64,000 bases of DNA from Opitutaceae bacterium EW11 (GCA_003054665.1 QAYY01000002.1:1-64000); one strand, 5' to 3'. Positions 38,202 to 43,894 are shown, counted from the first letter of the stretch. A program made the numbers and translations. Notes: generated by a model not told the origin, from the sequence alone.

Positions 38202-38930
38202 TCAGCGGTGACGCTGCAGGTAGGCTTTCAGCGCGACATCAGGTCCGACGTAGCTGCCGTCCTGGAAACTGGAGGCGACGACCTGGTCGTTTTCGTCGAG
38301 CAGCACGAGACACGGGATGCCCTTGACGCCGTATTGCTCCTTCAAGGTCTCCGTCAGCGGATGGTTCCGTTTCAGTCCGATCCACGGCATCGCATGCTGG
38401 TCCATGTAGGCGTTCATCCCTGCCTGGTCCTTGTCGCGGGAAACGAAGAGCACCTCGAAGTCTCCGTTCTTCTGATACTGCTGGTAGAACTCCACCAGCT
38501 TCGGCGTGAACTGCTGGCAGGGGCCGCACCACTTCGCCGAGAAATACAGAAAGAGGTACTTGCGGTTCTGGATGGCGGAGACGTCGGCCGGACCGGCGCG
38601 GACGATGAGCGAGTCTTCCGCGCCTTGGATCACTCCGCCGTGCAGAGAGGCGTGGTTGCTTGGGCGTGCGACCGTGGTTGTTGAACGCGGCGTGACCGTG
38701 AGATTCTTGCCGTTCATCCGTTCGACGGATACAACCTTGCCGTCGCGAATGCGGAGCTTGAGGCCGTCGGCGTAACCGACGACGCCGTTGCCGTCGGAGA
38801 GCGTGCTCAGCGTCGGTTTGCCGAGGTTTCCCGCAATGTCGTCGAAAACCGCGCCGACCGTAACGTCCGCCGCCGCCAAGCGGAGGGAAAGAAGCGCCCC
38901 GAGCACCGCCAATCCGAGGTGAGATTTCAT
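38202..38930 (-). CDS. Secreted thioredoxin-like protein
   Basis: The 242-residue protein has a signal peptide (MKSHLGLAVLGALLSLRLAA), an N-terminal region of about 90 residues of unknown fold, and a thioredoxin-like domain with the redox motif FSAKWCGPCQQF (Cys135-Gly-Pro-Cys138), cis-proline region GIPCLVLL, and the 'EVLFVSRDKDQAGMNAYM' stretch typical of tryparedoxin/nucleoredoxin-like members. It probably acts in periplasmic disulfide exchange. The WCGPC signature is intact. The HExxH membrane protein gene follows 20 bases downstream. Confidence 0.88.
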   Translation of the reverse strand: MKSHLGLAVLGALLSLRLAAADVTVGAVFDDIAGNLGKPTLSTLSDGNGVVGYADGLKLRIRDGKVVSVERMNGKNLTVTPRSTTTVARPSNHASLHGGVIQGAEDSLIVRAGPADVSAIQNRKYLFLYFSAKWCGPCQQFTPKLVEFYQQYQKNGDFEVLFVSRDKDQAGMNAYMDQHAMPWIGLKRNHPLTETLKEQYGVKGIPCLVLLDENDQVVASSFQDGSYVGPDVALKAYLQRHR

Positions 38931-39008: not shown

Positions 39009-41804
39009 TCAGCGGGGCAACTCCGGGGCCGCCGGCTTGGGCCCGATCCAGCCCACGTCGATCATCTTGACGGGGCGCACGATGGGTACGACGCGTCCCT
39101 CGATCTTCTGGGTTTCTCCGGGCTGGAGCTTGAGCGTGAAGACCCCCTGCTCGAGCCGATGCCTCGGCGGCACGGCGCGCTCGTCGATCAGGATCGTCCA
39201 CTCGCCCGCGGGAAGCCGGTCGAAAGCGAAACGCCCCCATTCGTCGGTGACGGTCCGCCGGATCGCGCCGTCCGCCGCGCGGGCTTCGATCAGAACTTGG
39301 CTGAGCCAGCGTTCGAGGCGGAGCGGGGCGGATCCTTCTTTCGACTCTTCGAACGAACTCGGCATTGCGGCCTCAAACGTGCCCACTCGCCCTTCGAGTC
39401 TCGCCGCCGGTTGCACCGCCAGCCGTACGGTCGCGCGCCGTCCGCGTTCGATCACGACCTCCACGGGCTGGGAGGCAAAGGCGACGGGGGCCGTGACCGA
39501 CGCTTGGTCCATCCTCAGCGTGTAGCGTCCCGCTTTCACGGAGGGGAAAACAAACCGGCCTTGGCGATCGGTGGACGCCTGGAGGTGGTCGAGGAGCAGC
39601 GTGGCGCCGGCGATGGGCGACGTGCCGGCGGGAGAGTCCAACTGGAGCACTCCTTCCAGACTGCCGCGGTTTTTCCGCATGGGAGACCGCACGCGAAGCG
39701 GAAGGGTGTAGGTCGCGATCACCATCCGGTCGCGCGAACCGCCGGTGATGCCGGAAGCGCGCACGCCGAGGTCCACCGAAGATCCCCCGCGGAAATCGTA
39801 TGCGAGGTCCGTCTGGGCGGCCACGTTGTTGGTGGTTTCGCCCCGCACGGTTCGGTAGAGCGACAAGGCGCCCGTGAGGCGAAATCCGTTCTTGGCATCC
39901 CAGGTGGTGCTGGCGATCGCGGTCAGGTCCTTCTGCGAGGCGGCGGAGTAGCGGCTGTCTCCAAACGACACATACAGCGCGTAGGTCAGATCGGGCCGCG
40001 GCCGGGCGTTGGCTGACAATGACACGCGACGGTATACGCGGCCCGAGTCGCCGGGCCTGTTCACGTCCGTCCAGCCGCCCTCGAGCGCGCCGCGAAGATA
40101 AAGCTTCTGTCCGCCCCAGATCACCGAAGCCATGGCAGTCTGCTGCGTCATGGACGATTCGGGACCCTGAAGCCGGTCCTCGGACTCGTTGAGGTTCAGA
40201 TCGAGGGAAGCGGTGACACGGCCGGAGAGCTGGCGGTCCGTGCCCACGCTGAACCAACGCACGCGGGAGGCGGACGGCTTCTCCGGATCGAGGTCCAGGT
40301 TGTTTTCCATCAGTTGAAAATTGCCTCGGGCCAGCCACTGCGGGCCGAGGTGCCAGGTGAAGTTCCCGCTGGTGGACTGCAGGTCGTGGTAATAGCCGAA
40401 GAAATCCGGCGAGGCTCGAACGTGTTCGACGTCGTAATACACGTCGGGACCCCAACGTCCGCGGAGTCTCGCCCGGTACGCGTTCCCGCTCGGGTGTTCG
40501 TCGTTCTCGCTCGTGGCGGCCTCCAGTTCGAGCGAGTTGATCCGGTTCGGTTGCAGGAACAGCTGAACGCTGGGAATGAGCGATTCCGGGTCCGAACCGA
40601 TGGAGTGAAGGCCTGTGTGGCGCGCGAGGAGGTTTCCTCGAAGGCGGAGATCCTTCGTGGGATCGAGCTGCACGAAGGCGCCGGTCTGCTCGGTGTCGAG
40701 AACCTGCCACGGTGTCGTGGCATAGTAGATACCGGTGGCGAGCGGAGCGTGGCGGTACTCGATTCCCGCGCCTCGGCCGAACAGCCAGCGCTGCGTCAGG
40801 GGCGAGAGGGTGTAGAGCTGGTCGCCGAGCAGCAGGTCCAGCGTCTTGCTGCGGTAGGCGAAGGAATACTGGTCTCCGGGAAGCAGCTTGGAGCCCTGGC
40901 TGATCGGGCCGGAGCGGAGAAGGAAGTCCAGTCGCTGGGTCTTCTGCAGATCGAGGAAACCCTGGCCGGACAGCTCCGTTTGGATGCCCGTGCTGTGGCC
41001 TGCCTCGGTGCTCCGATACAGCCCGCGGGTCCTTACCGAAAGCGCGAGCGTCTCCTCCTGCTCGGCGTCGGTCGTGTAGCGCGGGACGAGGTGCGTCGTG
41101 ATCGCCACCGTCTCGGAACGCGTGCGCGGTCCTTCGGCGATTCTGAGTTCGAGCAACACGGCATGACTCTGTTCGCCCCGCATCGCGGCGCTCGAGGTCA
41201 CGGTGGCCGAGACCGTGCCGCTCGATCCCGGCCCGAGGTCGAGACGATCGGGAACGAGGCTCACCGGAAAACCCAGCGTGCTGCGCGCCTTGATCGCGAT
41301 GCCGACGGCGTGATTGCCCCGGTTGGAAATGCGCCAGCTGACGGTGAACGGCTCGCCCGCGATGGCGCGCTCGGGGGCGAGCTCCGGTTCGACGCGCAGC
41401 GCCGAGGCGGACGGAACCAGCACGGTCAGCTCCGCCCGGGCGATTTCGCGGGAAGGATCCTGCTCCCGCGCCAAAACGTAGTGGATCGTGTAGGTGCCTT
41501 CGGCGGCGTTCTTCGGCACGGTCACGCCGATCAGCCGGATCTCCTCGGGCGCGACGGGGGTGAAGGGCAGATCGACCGGCGACAAAGCGCTCCAGCCCTC
41601 CGGCAGGATCAGCCGATCGCGCCACGCGGACGGCTCACGGTCTTCGAAGCGAAGGGCGATCGTTGCGGAGAGAAACCCGCCTGGCAGAACGGTCGCCGAG
41701 TGGCCGCTCCGTAGTTCTACGCTGGGTACAGAGTCGGCGGCGAGAACCGGACAAGCCAGAGCCAAGGCGTTTGCCAGAAGACAAATCCTTGTGAACGGAA
41801 TCAC
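39009..41804 (-). CDS. Large outer-membrane protein, candidate export channel of a fimbria-like operon
   Basis: The 931-residue protein has a signal peptide (about 1-22), two Ig-like or NEW3-like domains (about 25-130 and 135-235: PFTVSWRISNRGNHAVGIAI), and a region of about 500 residues of alternating amphipathic strands compatible with an outer-membrane beta-barrel (IEYRHAPLATGIYYATTPWQ, LRGALEGGWTDVNRPG). Two carboxypeptidase-regulatory-like domains follow (about 745-820 and 825-925: GATLLLDHLQASTDRQGRFV). No FimD/PapC plug or N-domain is recognisable. It is last in a four-gene operon: its GTG start directly follows the TGA of the chaperone-like gene. A role as secretion or anchoring pore for the upstream subunits is inferred. 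Confidence 0.75.
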   Translation of the reverse strand: MIPFTRICLLANALALACPVLAADSVPSVELRSGHSATVLPGGFLSATIALRFEDREPSAWRDRLILPEGWSALSPVDLPFTPVAPEEIRLIGVTVPKNAAEGTYTIHYVLAREQDPSREIARAELTVLVPSASALRVEPELAPERAIAGEPFTVSWRISNRGNHAVGIAIKARSTLGFPVSLVPDRLDLGPGSSGTVSATVTSSAAMRGEQSHAVLLELRIAEGPRTRSETVAITTHLVPRYTTDAEQEETLALSVRTRGLYRSTEAGHSTGIQTELSGQGFLDLQKTQRLDFLLRSGPISQGSKLLPGDQYSFAYRSKTLDLLLGDQLYTLSPLTQRWLFGRGAGIEYRHAPLATGIYYATTPWQVLDTEQTGAFVQLDPTKDLRLRGNLLARHTGLHSIGSDPESLIPSVQLFLQPNRINSLELEAATSENDEHPSGNAYRARLRGRWGPDVYYDVEHVRASPDFFGYYHDLQSTSGNFTWHLGPQWLARGNFQLMENNLDLDPEKPSASRVRWFSVGTDRQLSGRVTASLDLNLNESEDRLQGPESSMTQQTAMASVIWGGQKLYLRGALEGGWTDVNRPGDSGRVYRRVSLSANARPRPDLTYALYVSFGDSRYSAASQKDLTAIASTTWDAKNGFRLTGALSLYRTVRGETTNNVAAQTDLAYDFRGGSSVDLGVRASGITGGSRDRMVIATYTLPLRVRSPMRKNRGSLEGVLQLDSPAGTSPIAGATLLLDHLQASTDRQGRFVFPSVKAGRYTLRMDQASVTAPVAFASQPVEVVIERGRRATVRLAVQPAARLEGRVGTFEAAMPSSFEESKEGSAPLRLERWLSQVLIEARAADGAIRRTVTDEWGRFAFDRLPAGEWTILIDERAVPPRHRLEQGVFTLKLQPGETQKIEGRVVPIVRPVKMIDVGWIGPKPAAPELPR

Positions 41805-42620
41805 TCAATCGATGCGGAAGCGGTACTGCGCACCATAGGTCTCGTCGTCGCTGTCGAGCACGATGAAGGCCAGGTACTCGCCGCTGCCTAGGTTTTGAAG
41901 TGGAAAGGATTGGTGGACGGACATCTCGGGCAGCACCTGCGTGGTGCGCCCCTGCAGGGTGGAGATGGCCCGGCCTTGTCCGTCGAAAAGCCGCACCTCG
42001 ATTTTCGGCCGGAACGAACGTTCCCCGTCGTTGGAGAGATCGAAGCACAAGGCCCGCGTCCCGCGCTCGAGCGCGACTGACTGGTTGAAGATCCTCGGTT
42101 TGGCCGCGGCGGATTCTCCGACCTGCACCACGATCTGCAGACCGTACCGCACGATCGAGCGGACCCTGACGGTGCCCGGTGCGGAGGGCTCGTCCAGGGA
42201 GAGCGGCTCAATCATGACCAGACACCAGTAGGTGCCGCTGAGGCGGGCTTCGCGCGGGACCGCAACCCGGAAAGAGATGCTTCGGGATTCGCCCGCTTTC
42301 AGTTCCGGTTGCCGATCGGCAACCTCGATCCACGGAGCGCAGGAGCGCGGAAGTGTGCCCGGCTCGTCGTACGTCGTATTCCCGTCCGCCGTGTAGCGAT
42401 AGTCGGTCAGGTAAACCCGGGCCGACGTCGTGTCGTTCGAGGCGTTGAGCAGCACAAAGCGGCCTTCCGCGCTCTGCCCCGGCTGCAGGCGGAACTCCCG
42501 GGTCAGATCACCGCCCAGCAGAATGCCCCGGGGCGCGTCGGCGGCCTGGATCTGTCGCGGCGCGGCGACTACAAACCCCAGGCAGACCATTGAGAGCAGC
42601 GTGGAAAGAGCGGATTTCAT
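41805..42620 (-). CDS. Periplasmic chaperone-like Ig-fold protein of the fimbria-like operon
   Basis: The 271-residue protein has a signal peptide (to about IQAA, residue 26) and two Ig-like segments. The first ends in WIEVADRQPELKAGESRSIS and FRVAVPREARLSGTYWCLVM, resembling the strand F-G region and Arg/Lys anchors of pilus chaperones or DUF916-type proteins. The second contains LERGTRALCFDLSNDGERSF and GSGEYLAFIVLDSDDETYGA. It probably binds the small subunits encoded upstream before passing them to the large outer-membrane protein. The ATG overlaps the TAA of the preceding gene (TAATG), and its TGA touches the next start. It is not a recognisable PapD. Confidence 0.7.
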   Translation of the reverse strand: MKSALSTLLSMVCLGFVVAAPRQIQAADAPRGILLGGDLTREFRLQPGQSAEGRFVLLNASNDTTSARVYLTDYRYTADGNTTYDEPGTLPRSCAPWIEVADRQPELKAGESRSISFRVAVPREARLSGTYWCLVMIEPLSLDEPSAPGTVRVRSIVRYGLQIVVQVGESAAAKPRIFNQSVALERGTRALCFDLSNDGERSFRPKIEVRLFDGQGRAISTLQGRTTQVLPEMSVHQSFPLQNLGSGEYLAFIVLDSDDETYGAQYRFRID

Positions 42621-43096
42621 TAGTTGTCGGTCACGGTGAACGTCACGTCGGCCACGTACGTGCCGGGAGCCGTGGCGATGCTCAGCTTCTGGACCGAATA
42701 CTGGAGTTCGTAGATGTCGCCGTTCAGCGCAGAGGCGCTGGAGAGGAGCGGAACATCGGTGTCGTTGACCTGGATAGGCTGGCCAAAAACGCCGTTGCGT
42801 TTGATCGCGATCATCAGGTGGCCCGACCGGACCCAGGCGGCGTTGGAGCGGCGGACCCAGACGATGCACGGGCCCGTGGACGAGACTCGGATGGTGAACG
42901 GCACTCCGACGAGCACCGAACTCTTGAAGTCCGACCCCGCTCCCGAAACCAGATCGCTGGCGGTGAAAACTTTCTCCTGACTCGAGCCCGTCGCGATCAC
43001 GCTCCCGCTGCCACGACAGACCCCGGGGGAGAGCCCAAGCAGAACCGCCAGCACGAGGCTGGCGGATGCTGCTTGAAACATGCTCCTGCGACGCAC
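42620..43096 (-). CDS. Small secreted pilin-like subunit 2
   Basis: The 158-residue protein has an N-terminal signal (MRRRSMFQAASASLVLAVLL, cleavage near CRG) and a single beta-rich domain with a C-terminal strand pattern (YVADVTFTVTDN) resembling exported fibre or surface subunits. Cysteine 25-27 region and another at GPCIVWVRR could pair. The GTG at 43096 starts two bases after the TAG of the previous gene and is chosen for coupling; an internal ATG at 43081 is possible but would put an AGGAG too close to it. The stop overlaps the chaperone-like gene's ATG. Function unknown apart from context. Confidence 0.65.
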   Translation of the reverse strand: MRRRSMFQAASASLVLAVLLGLSPGVCRGSGSVIATGSSQEKVFTASDLVSGAGSDFKSSVLVGVPFTIRVSSTGPCIVWVRRSNAAWVRSGHLMIAIKRNGVFGQPIQVNDTDVPLLSSASALNGDIYELQYSVQKLSIATAPGTYVADVTFTVTDN

Positions 43097-43098
43097 GG

Positions 43099-43650
43099 CT
43101 ATGAGCCTGCGGTAATCGTATAGGTGACAGTGAGGGTGACGGCGGCGGTCGGGGCCGGCACGGCGGCGTTGGACCGGAACGTGTAGATCAGCGGGAGTCC
43201 GGTGGGATCGAGCGTGTCGCTACCCATCGCGCCGATGCCGGTGATGAAGTCCTGATCGGTCGAGGTGAGGGTGACGGTGTTGTCCACGAAGGTGTTGCTG
43301 CCGCTATGTGTGCCCAGCTTGACGGTCAGCTGGGAGCCGGTCACCTCCGTGCCTGCGCTCAGCCGTGCGGTGATCTTTCTGTCCGGCGTGACGTTGTTGG
43401 TGATCCTGAGCACGGGGGCCGTTCCCTCGGCATTGCTTACGCCGACGGTTGCGCCGGTGTTGCCGGGCAGTTTGCCGGCGTCCGTGTTGGACGAGCTCAT
43501 CGTGACCGTAGGCGCGCTCCCGGTGATGGAAATAATGCTGATGGAATCGACGCCGGTGGCCACTTGGCCGGCAGTCTGCGCGTGCAGACTCGCGGCTCCG
43601 GCAGCGAAGGCGAGAGCGGGAAGAAGATGGAGGATGCGAAGTGATTTCAT
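43099..43650 (-). CDS. Small secreted pilin-like subunit 1
   Basis: The 183-residue protein has a signal peptide (MKSLRILHLLPALAFAAGAA, cleavage near LHA-QTA). The mature part is Ser/Thr/Gly-rich and all-beta: VDSISIISITGSAPTVTMSS, VLRITNNVTPDRKITARLSA, QLTVKLGTHSGSNTFVDNTV. It ends with AVTLTVTYTITAGS, an alternating strand like those in surface fibre subunits and similar to the end of subunit 2. No cysteines remain in the mature region. It is first in the operon, so it may be the major subunit. The ATG at 43650 follows a leader with a strong hairpin. No fimbrial family is recognisable. Confidence 0.65.
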   Translation of the reverse strand: MKSLRILHLLPALAFAAGAASLHAQTAGQVATGVDSISIISITGSAPTVTMSSSNTDAGKLPGNTGATVGVSNAEGTAPVLRITNNVTPDRKITARLSAGTEVTGSQLTVKLGTHSGSNTFVDNTVTLTSTDQDFITGIGAMGSDTLDPTGLPLIYTFRSNAAVPAPTAAVTLTVTYTITAGS

Positions 43651-43685
43651 GGCATGTACTGTGGTGGGTTTGAGTGAAGCGTGAT

Positions 43686-43707
43686 GCGGGAGGCAAAAGC
43701 CTCCCGC
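43686..43707. promoter_or_regulatory. Stem-loop in the leader of the fimbria-like operon
   Basis: A perfect 9-bp stem, GCGGGAGGC and GCCTCCCGC with AAAA (TTTT on the minus strand) as loop, begins 36 bases upstream of the first subunit's start codon. It has no T tail on the minus strand. It may affect mRNA stability or translation, or be a remnant repeat. The rest of the gap to the symporter gene shows no clear promoter pair. Confidence 0.45.
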
Positions 43708-43894
43708 CTCCCTTACTGCGGTGGGCTCGCTCAACCTTCAAACGGAAACACCCTCCGAAAATCTCCGTACGGGACGTTGCGTATCCGTGTAGGCGGATCC
43801 GTAGATTTCCGGGTCGGCCGAATCCTCGTAGCGGCCCGGAAAATGCGCGCCGAACGAGCCCCTCGGCCGGACGTACGGAGGCCGTCCCGGGCCG

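Follow-up and report, generated by a model that had tools for sequence, protein, structure and literature searches.

A four-gene operon of an Opitutaceae bacterium with features of chaperone-usher and WxL/WxLIP surface systems

Organization of the locus

The window analysed here is the whole 64,000-nucleotide stretch QAYY01000002.1:1-64000 of Opitutaceae bacterium EW11 (GCA_003054665.1). Its minus strand was found to carry, from 43650 to 39009, four coupled genes with secreted products in the order P1-P2-P3-P4 (Table 1). The four open reading frames, their strand and their junctions (TAG-2 nt-GTG for P1/P2, TAATG for P2/P3 and TGA/GTG for P3/P4, with spacings of +2, -1 and 0, respectively) were all confirmed as an earlier reading of the sequence had given them. 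P2 has an alternative start at an in-frame ATG at 43081, and a signal-peptide-like start was recognised by eye on P1, P2, P3 and P4. Full-length relatives of P4, P3 and P2 were present in the same order in two other genomes (identities of 43/28%, 48/32% and 33/26%, respectively), so that these are not a chance set of open reading frames. A single copy of P4 and a single copy of P3 were found in the 6.4 Mb genome (G000) that contains the window.

When the operon was scanned for promoters and terminators, the scores were not above those of shuffles, and no Rfam elements were found near it. Immediately upstream of P1, at 43683-43710, lies a 12-nt inverted repeat with a 4-nt loop, which may terminate transcription of the symporter gene lying upstream or form a hairpin in the 5' UTR. 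On the other side, a secreted thioredoxin-like protein with a WCGPC motif is encoded on the minus strand at 38202-38930, its start lying 78 bp past the P4 stop. This gene was considered as a fifth operon member and dropped; relatives carry unrelated genes at that spot, and it therefore probably lies outside the system.

Table 1. Features of the operon and usher-less loci related to it. Positions are those of the window unless a locus is named.
Feature	Position	Strand	Description
P1	43099..43650	-	183 aa, ATG start; secreted small beta-rich protein, putative fibre subunit (S1/S2-like)
P1 C-terminal strand	43102..43137	-	TLTVTYTITAGS; candidate chaperone-recognition / F-like strand
P2	42620..43096	-	158 aa, GTG start; second secreted small beta-rich protein, putative subunit (S3-like)
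P2 C-terminal strand	42623..42658	-	YVADVTFTVTDN
P3	41805..42620	-	271 aa, ATG start; periplasmic two-Ig chaperone-like protein, WxLIP (DUF916-DUF3324) / PapD-like
P3 candidate donor strand	42120..42173	-	residues 150-167, end of F1-G1 loop and G1 strand; TVRVRSIVRYGLQIVVQV
P4	39009..41804	-	931 aa, GTG start; outer-membrane usher-like barrel protein
P4 N-terminal Ig/NEW3-like domain pair	41085..41723	-	residues 28-240
P4 predicted beta-barrel	39687..41051	-	residues 252-706, 26 strands by DSSP
P4 two C-terminal carboxypeptidase-regulatory-like beta-sandwiches	39084..39668	-	residues 713-907
Usher-less WxLIP-like chaperone loci	L114 5697-11471; L115 5872-8080; L113 863-3692		other PVC genomes

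Gene order and distribution

Relatives were sought in genome samples that were drawn, and not exhaustive, with one genome per species. A scan of the genome contigs with the P4 single sequence as query gave no match. P4 was rare in the window's own order (3 of 273 genomes, the window's genome counted) and in its own phylum (3 of 388 genomes, one copy being truncated). Intact copies in Verrucomicrobiota, among them those of the window, of another Opitutaceae genus (G114) and of the Opitutia MAG PWMU01000029.1, all have the order P1-P2-P3-P4. P1 was recognised upstream of P2 with a profile E of 5e-12 in G114 and of 1.5e-38 in the MAG, whose sequence is itself part of the profile. At L012 6736-8019 (genome G360), a P4 homologue was reduced to its C-terminal half, with no chaperone nearby; this is probably a decayed locus.

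A profile scan led to the system in Algoriphagus pacificus (Bacteroidota), and ten further genomes of the order to which this species belongs were found to carry it, seven of the ten with the arrangement S1-chaperone-usher-S2-S3, in which S1 and S2 are P1-like and S3 is P2-like. With the chaperone profile alone, 48 of the 325 Bacteroidia genomes sampled gave a match. P4 searches located 13 relatives whose P4 gene is intact, and in every one of them a chaperone gene adjoined the P4 homologue. When loci were located by the chaperone, a same-strand protein of at least 900 aa was present within three genes in 16 of 20, and 13 of these 16 large proteins matched the P4 profile (E<1e-3); among the remaining chaperone loci, one had a P4 relative nearby on the opposite strand and one ended at a contig edge. 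The distances between chaperones and those between ushers were strongly correlated (r = 0.97, with none of 5000 permutations as high), as expected for genes inherited together. The system is much commoner in Bacteroidota than in Verrucomicrobiota, where it is rare.

Variations on this layout were also observed. In three Algoriphagus-type loci (L008 4331-6394, L025 9220-11286 and L026 9183-11246), the first subunit gene is separated from the chaperone by genes for a PAS-type sensor kinase and for a response-regulator-like protein, both assigned by eye, which suggests dedicated signalling control. At L096 3308-6020 and L099 6983-9537, at least three tandem and very similar subunit genes stand upstream of the chaperone, as if subunit variants had been amplified. 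Usher-less cousins were found in three other PVC genomes, where small secreted proteins accompany a P3 relative and the stretch read contains no P4; the locus at L114 also encodes a protein of 926 aa whose C-terminal strand is similar. These loci are arranged like WxL clusters and may represent intermediates or reduced forms.

Protein families and predicted folds

Scans of P1-P4 as single sequences against Pfam and NCBIfam gave nothing usable except CarboxypepD_reg in P4, which also had weak Ig/NEW3 matches, and in scans of curated families no usher, PapD or pilin family matched P1-P4. P1 aligned with small secreted proteins of Cytophagales operons, in which P2 relatives are present as well. 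In profile-profile comparison, the P1 family matched the P2 family with a probability of 94 (E 1e-7), and the P1-type and P2-type proteins each matched the small proteins of other Bacteroidia loci with probabilities of 96-97. Nearly every subunit inspected had a C-terminal strand of the form Y-x(3)-[VL]-x-[YF]-x-[hydrophobic], placed 2-4 residues before the end. By these comparisons, the small proteins form one new linked family with a common C-terminal beta-strand, and a conserved free C-terminus of this sort would be required by a chaperone to anchor a subunit at its final strand. PDB sequence searches with two subunit alignments gave no match, profile comparisons of P1 and P2 with WxL and with FimA were not significant, and the W-x-L motif was absent from both proteins. 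WxL domains have a look-alike terminal strand (TLTWTL), and one Flavobacteriia-type subunit set matched WxL in hhalign with a probability of 76, at the C-terminus and over only 26 columns, so that homology of the subunits to WxL is unproven.

P3 alone gave nothing above threshold in a Pfam scan, and NCBIfam yielded no convincing match for the chaperones or the subunits. When a 14-sequence profile of the P3 family was compared with the PDB, EfmWxLIP1 (9i25, 9i1y) came first with an E of 3.6e-8, covering both domains over the whole length. In hhalign, the P3 profile matched seven WxLIPs of lactic acid bacteria with a probability of 97 (E 7e-11), compared to a probability of 7 against E. coli PapD-type chaperones. 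With a broader set of 34 diverse chaperones, the probabilities were 98.4 (E 5e-15) and 90.5 (E 1.4e-6), respectively. WxLIP and PapD compared directly gave a probability of only 0.6, and the P3 family, which reaches both, is therefore the link between them. One Bacteroidota P3 relative scored above the Pfam WxLIP_PGBD cut-off (38.6 versus 27.3 bits). The AlphaFold model of P3 (pLDDT 88) contains two Ig domains, and a Foldseek search with it returned WxLIP first (9e-14), followed by the pilus chaperones CfaA, CsuC, FimC and Caf1M at 7e-10 to 1e-7. The profile comparisons show that P3 is homologous to WxLIP over its whole length and, via the broad profile, to PapD.

The F1-G1 loop of P3 is long and, apart from the signal peptide, the least confident part of the model. 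At the end of this loop and in the G1 strand, positions 151, 153, 157, 159, 161 and 163 are hydrophobic across 34 sequences, an alternation compatible with donor-strand complementation. As placed by alignment only, the candidate counterparts of PapD R8/K112 are R158 in the G1 strand, which is R in 18 of 34 sequences, and the R41 position, which is R in 3 of 34 and mostly L or H. The PapD cleft pair as such may thus be absent from the P3 family, which would count against the chaperone-usher-like reading. P3 closes with the final strand of its second Ig domain (E261-270 of 271), and there is no transmembrane helix of the WxLIP type.

PF00577 had no match in the whole genome, with an E. coli control being positive, and hhalign of P4 against ushers gave probabilities of 0.3-16 (0.3-1.7 against FimD). 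The AlphaFold model of P4 was of moderate confidence, with a pLDDT of 79 and a pTM of 0.49. No plug insertion was present in the model barrel, in which the gaps between strands never exceeded 14 residues. The ten best Foldseek matches among 350,542 PDB chains were all FimD or PapC, at 3e-16 to 4e-13 over about 740-790 columns, and unrelated outer-membrane barrels started near 1e-7. The TM-scores against FimD were only 0.3-0.4 and, together with the pTM, make the predicted domain arrangement unreliable. The model supports an usher-like predicted fold for P4, the specific arrangement being unproven.

Relation to known systems and proposed pathway

With the WxL/WxLIP clusters of Gram-positive Bacillota, the system shares a two-Ig partner protein, P3 and WxLIP being homologous along their full length, as well as small secreted beta proteins whose C-terminal strand resembles Y-x(3)-[VL]-x-[W/Y/F]-x-[hydrophobic], and a similar gene order. 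It differs from them in the outer-membrane usher-like protein, in the missing C-terminal transmembrane helix of P3 and in the lack of the two W-x-L motifs in P1 and P2, and for homology of the subunits to WxL the last strand gives no more than a hint. Its chaperone makes the system a member of the WxLIP superfamily, though one without W-x-L motifs or transmembrane helix. With chaperone-usher pili (FimC/FimD, PapD/PapC, Csu, CFA/I) it shares the operon logic of subunit, chaperone and usher, a two-Ig chaperone, and a predicted barrel of the approximately 24-strand usher type (26 in the P4 model) followed by two beta-sandwiches. In contrast to these pili, a pair of Ig domains takes the place of the FimD N-domain at the N-terminus of P4, the model barrel of P4 has no plug insertion, the window proteins have no usher, PapD or pilin sequence match, and the chaperone is nearest to WxLIP. 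The system would work like a chaperone-usher one but falls outside the usher and pilin sequence families and has no plug. The type V pili of Bacteroidota (FimA/Mfa1) overlap with it in phylum, and their fibres are thought to be joined by strand exchange. Their subunits are lipoproteins matured by a protease, and no usher is known for them. The Mfa1 operon components have been described (PMC5789003), and the Mfa2 family matched one chaperone, at no better than 0.013.

Taken together, the operon probably encodes a chaperone-usher-like surface-fibre pathway that connects WxL/WxLIP with chaperone-usher pili. The computed basis consists of the conserved gene order, co-inheritance, the homology of P3, the unity of the subunit family and the fold class of P4; from there we infer donor-strand complementation and exchange, transfer to P4, polymerisation, translocation through P4, a surface fibre and an adhesive role. 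P1 and P2, as subunits, would enter the periplasm by Sec, and the F1-G1 hairpin or G1 strand of P3 would cap each incomplete subunit, as PapD-type chaperones do on pilins and as AlphaFold predicts for WxLIP on WxL. The complexes of P3 and subunit would then be delivered to P4, probably docking at the N-terminal Ig pair instead of a FimD N-domain. Subunits would pass through the P4 barrel, with the two C-terminal sandwiches as assembly or anchor domains, and the exported subunits would build a fibre or short fibril on the surface. In AlphaFold predictions, the long hairpin of WxLIP enters WxL and completes its sandwich (PMC10599100), and in chaperone-usher systems the G1 strand of the chaperone stabilises the subunit comparably (PMC9452303). 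WxLIP has been described as a surface anchor or linker and not as an export chaperone (PMC10599100), which counts against the proposed pathway.

An alternative is a WxL-like surface complex, in which P3 would be the lasting structural partner completing P1 and P2, as WxLIP is proposed to do with WxL, P4 would be an outer-membrane anchor or export pore, and nothing would polymerise. The closest relatives of P3 are indeed WxLIP and not PapD, WxL clusters show the parallel order small WxL-WxLIP-large WxL, and other PVC genomes have usher-less loci in which a chaperone relative occurs together with small secreted proteins. However, P3 ends after the second Ig domain with no transmembrane helix, unlike WxLIP, a linked P4-type barrel with usher fold matches is almost always there in Cytophagales/Bacteroidia, and two to four subunit genes are typical per locus, so that such a complex is rather unlikely. 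It is very improbable that the operon is a canonical chaperone-usher pilus of the archaic or alpha clade that has merely diverged. PF00577 is absent genome-wide where the E. coli control was detected, the window proteins match no PapD, usher or pilin family, the chaperone is nearer to WxLIP than to PapD, and the subunits are unrelated to FimA by profile; these findings outweigh the fold matches of P4 to FimD/PapC and of P3 to CfaA/CsuC, as well as weak hints of an alpha-type usher C-terminus (CooC_C in one member of the P4 family, 0.024; EcpC, probability 16). CarboxypepD_reg and NEW3-like domains also occur in porin, transporter and carbohydrate-related contexts, and other barrels do appear lower in the Foldseek list of P4. 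Nevertheless, a general porin, transporter or carbohydrate-related barrel with the small proteins as periplasmic accessories is scarcely credible, given that FimD is separated from other outer-membrane barrels by an E-value gap of approximately nine orders of magnitude, that linkage to a PapD/WxLIP-type chaperone is strict and that the small proteins have subunit-like ends.

The sequence-only reading was largely right. The logic of subunit, chaperone and pore that it proposed is supported. The AlphaFold models confirm its two Ig segments in P3 and its Ig, barrel and carboxypeptidase-regulatory segments in P4, to which Pfam adds CarboxypepD_reg for P4. The relevance it saw in DUF916/WxL agrees with the homology of P3 to WxLIP (DUF916-DUF3324), the FimD and PapD signatures whose lack it had noted were likewise not found as sequence matches in the window proteins, and the survey of gene order that it proposed showed conserved synteny in another Opitutaceae genus and the Opitutia MAG. 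Its suggestion of a separate, undescribed surface-fibre system of Verrucomicrobiota is not supported as regards complete separation from chaperone/usher systems, since the best fold matches of the P4 model are FimD/PapC and the broad chaperone profile reaches PapD, nor as regards Verrucomicrobiota, the system being far commoner in Bacteroidota.

Tentatively, the proposed pathway might be extended to the third branch of a single superfamily, in the form of a diderm 'WxL-usher' pathway of Bacteroidota and Verrucomicrobiota. Its chaperone, subunits and usher would then show that Gram-positive WxL/WxLIP surface complexes and Gram-negative chaperone-usher pili have a common ancestor and use a common donor-strand mechanism. 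In a 2016 survey, fimbrial ushers were listed for Proteobacteria, Spirochaetes, Cyanobacteria and Deinococcus-Thermus, with Bacteroidota and Verrucomicrobiota absent (PMC4827864); archaic pili are said to occur across a wide range of phyla (PMC9452303). In the open-access full-text literature no paper was found that links WxL/DUF916 with ushers or describes the P1-P4 operon, which is not proof of absence. An usher-like pathway that usher profiles do not see, with its chaperone in about one seventh of the sampled Bacteroidia genomes, would give major environmental and host-associated phyla a further class of surface appendage. Such a pathway would point to a role of WxLIP as donor-strand chaperone and would join two fields, WxL surface systems and chaperone-usher pili, that have so far been studied apart.

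An unannotated WxLIP of the Enterococcus type, 73% identical to EfmWxLIP1, was observed at 101794-102462 of CP069367.1, a record labelled as a Klebsiella pneumoniae plasmid, which is probably a mixed or mislabelled assembly.
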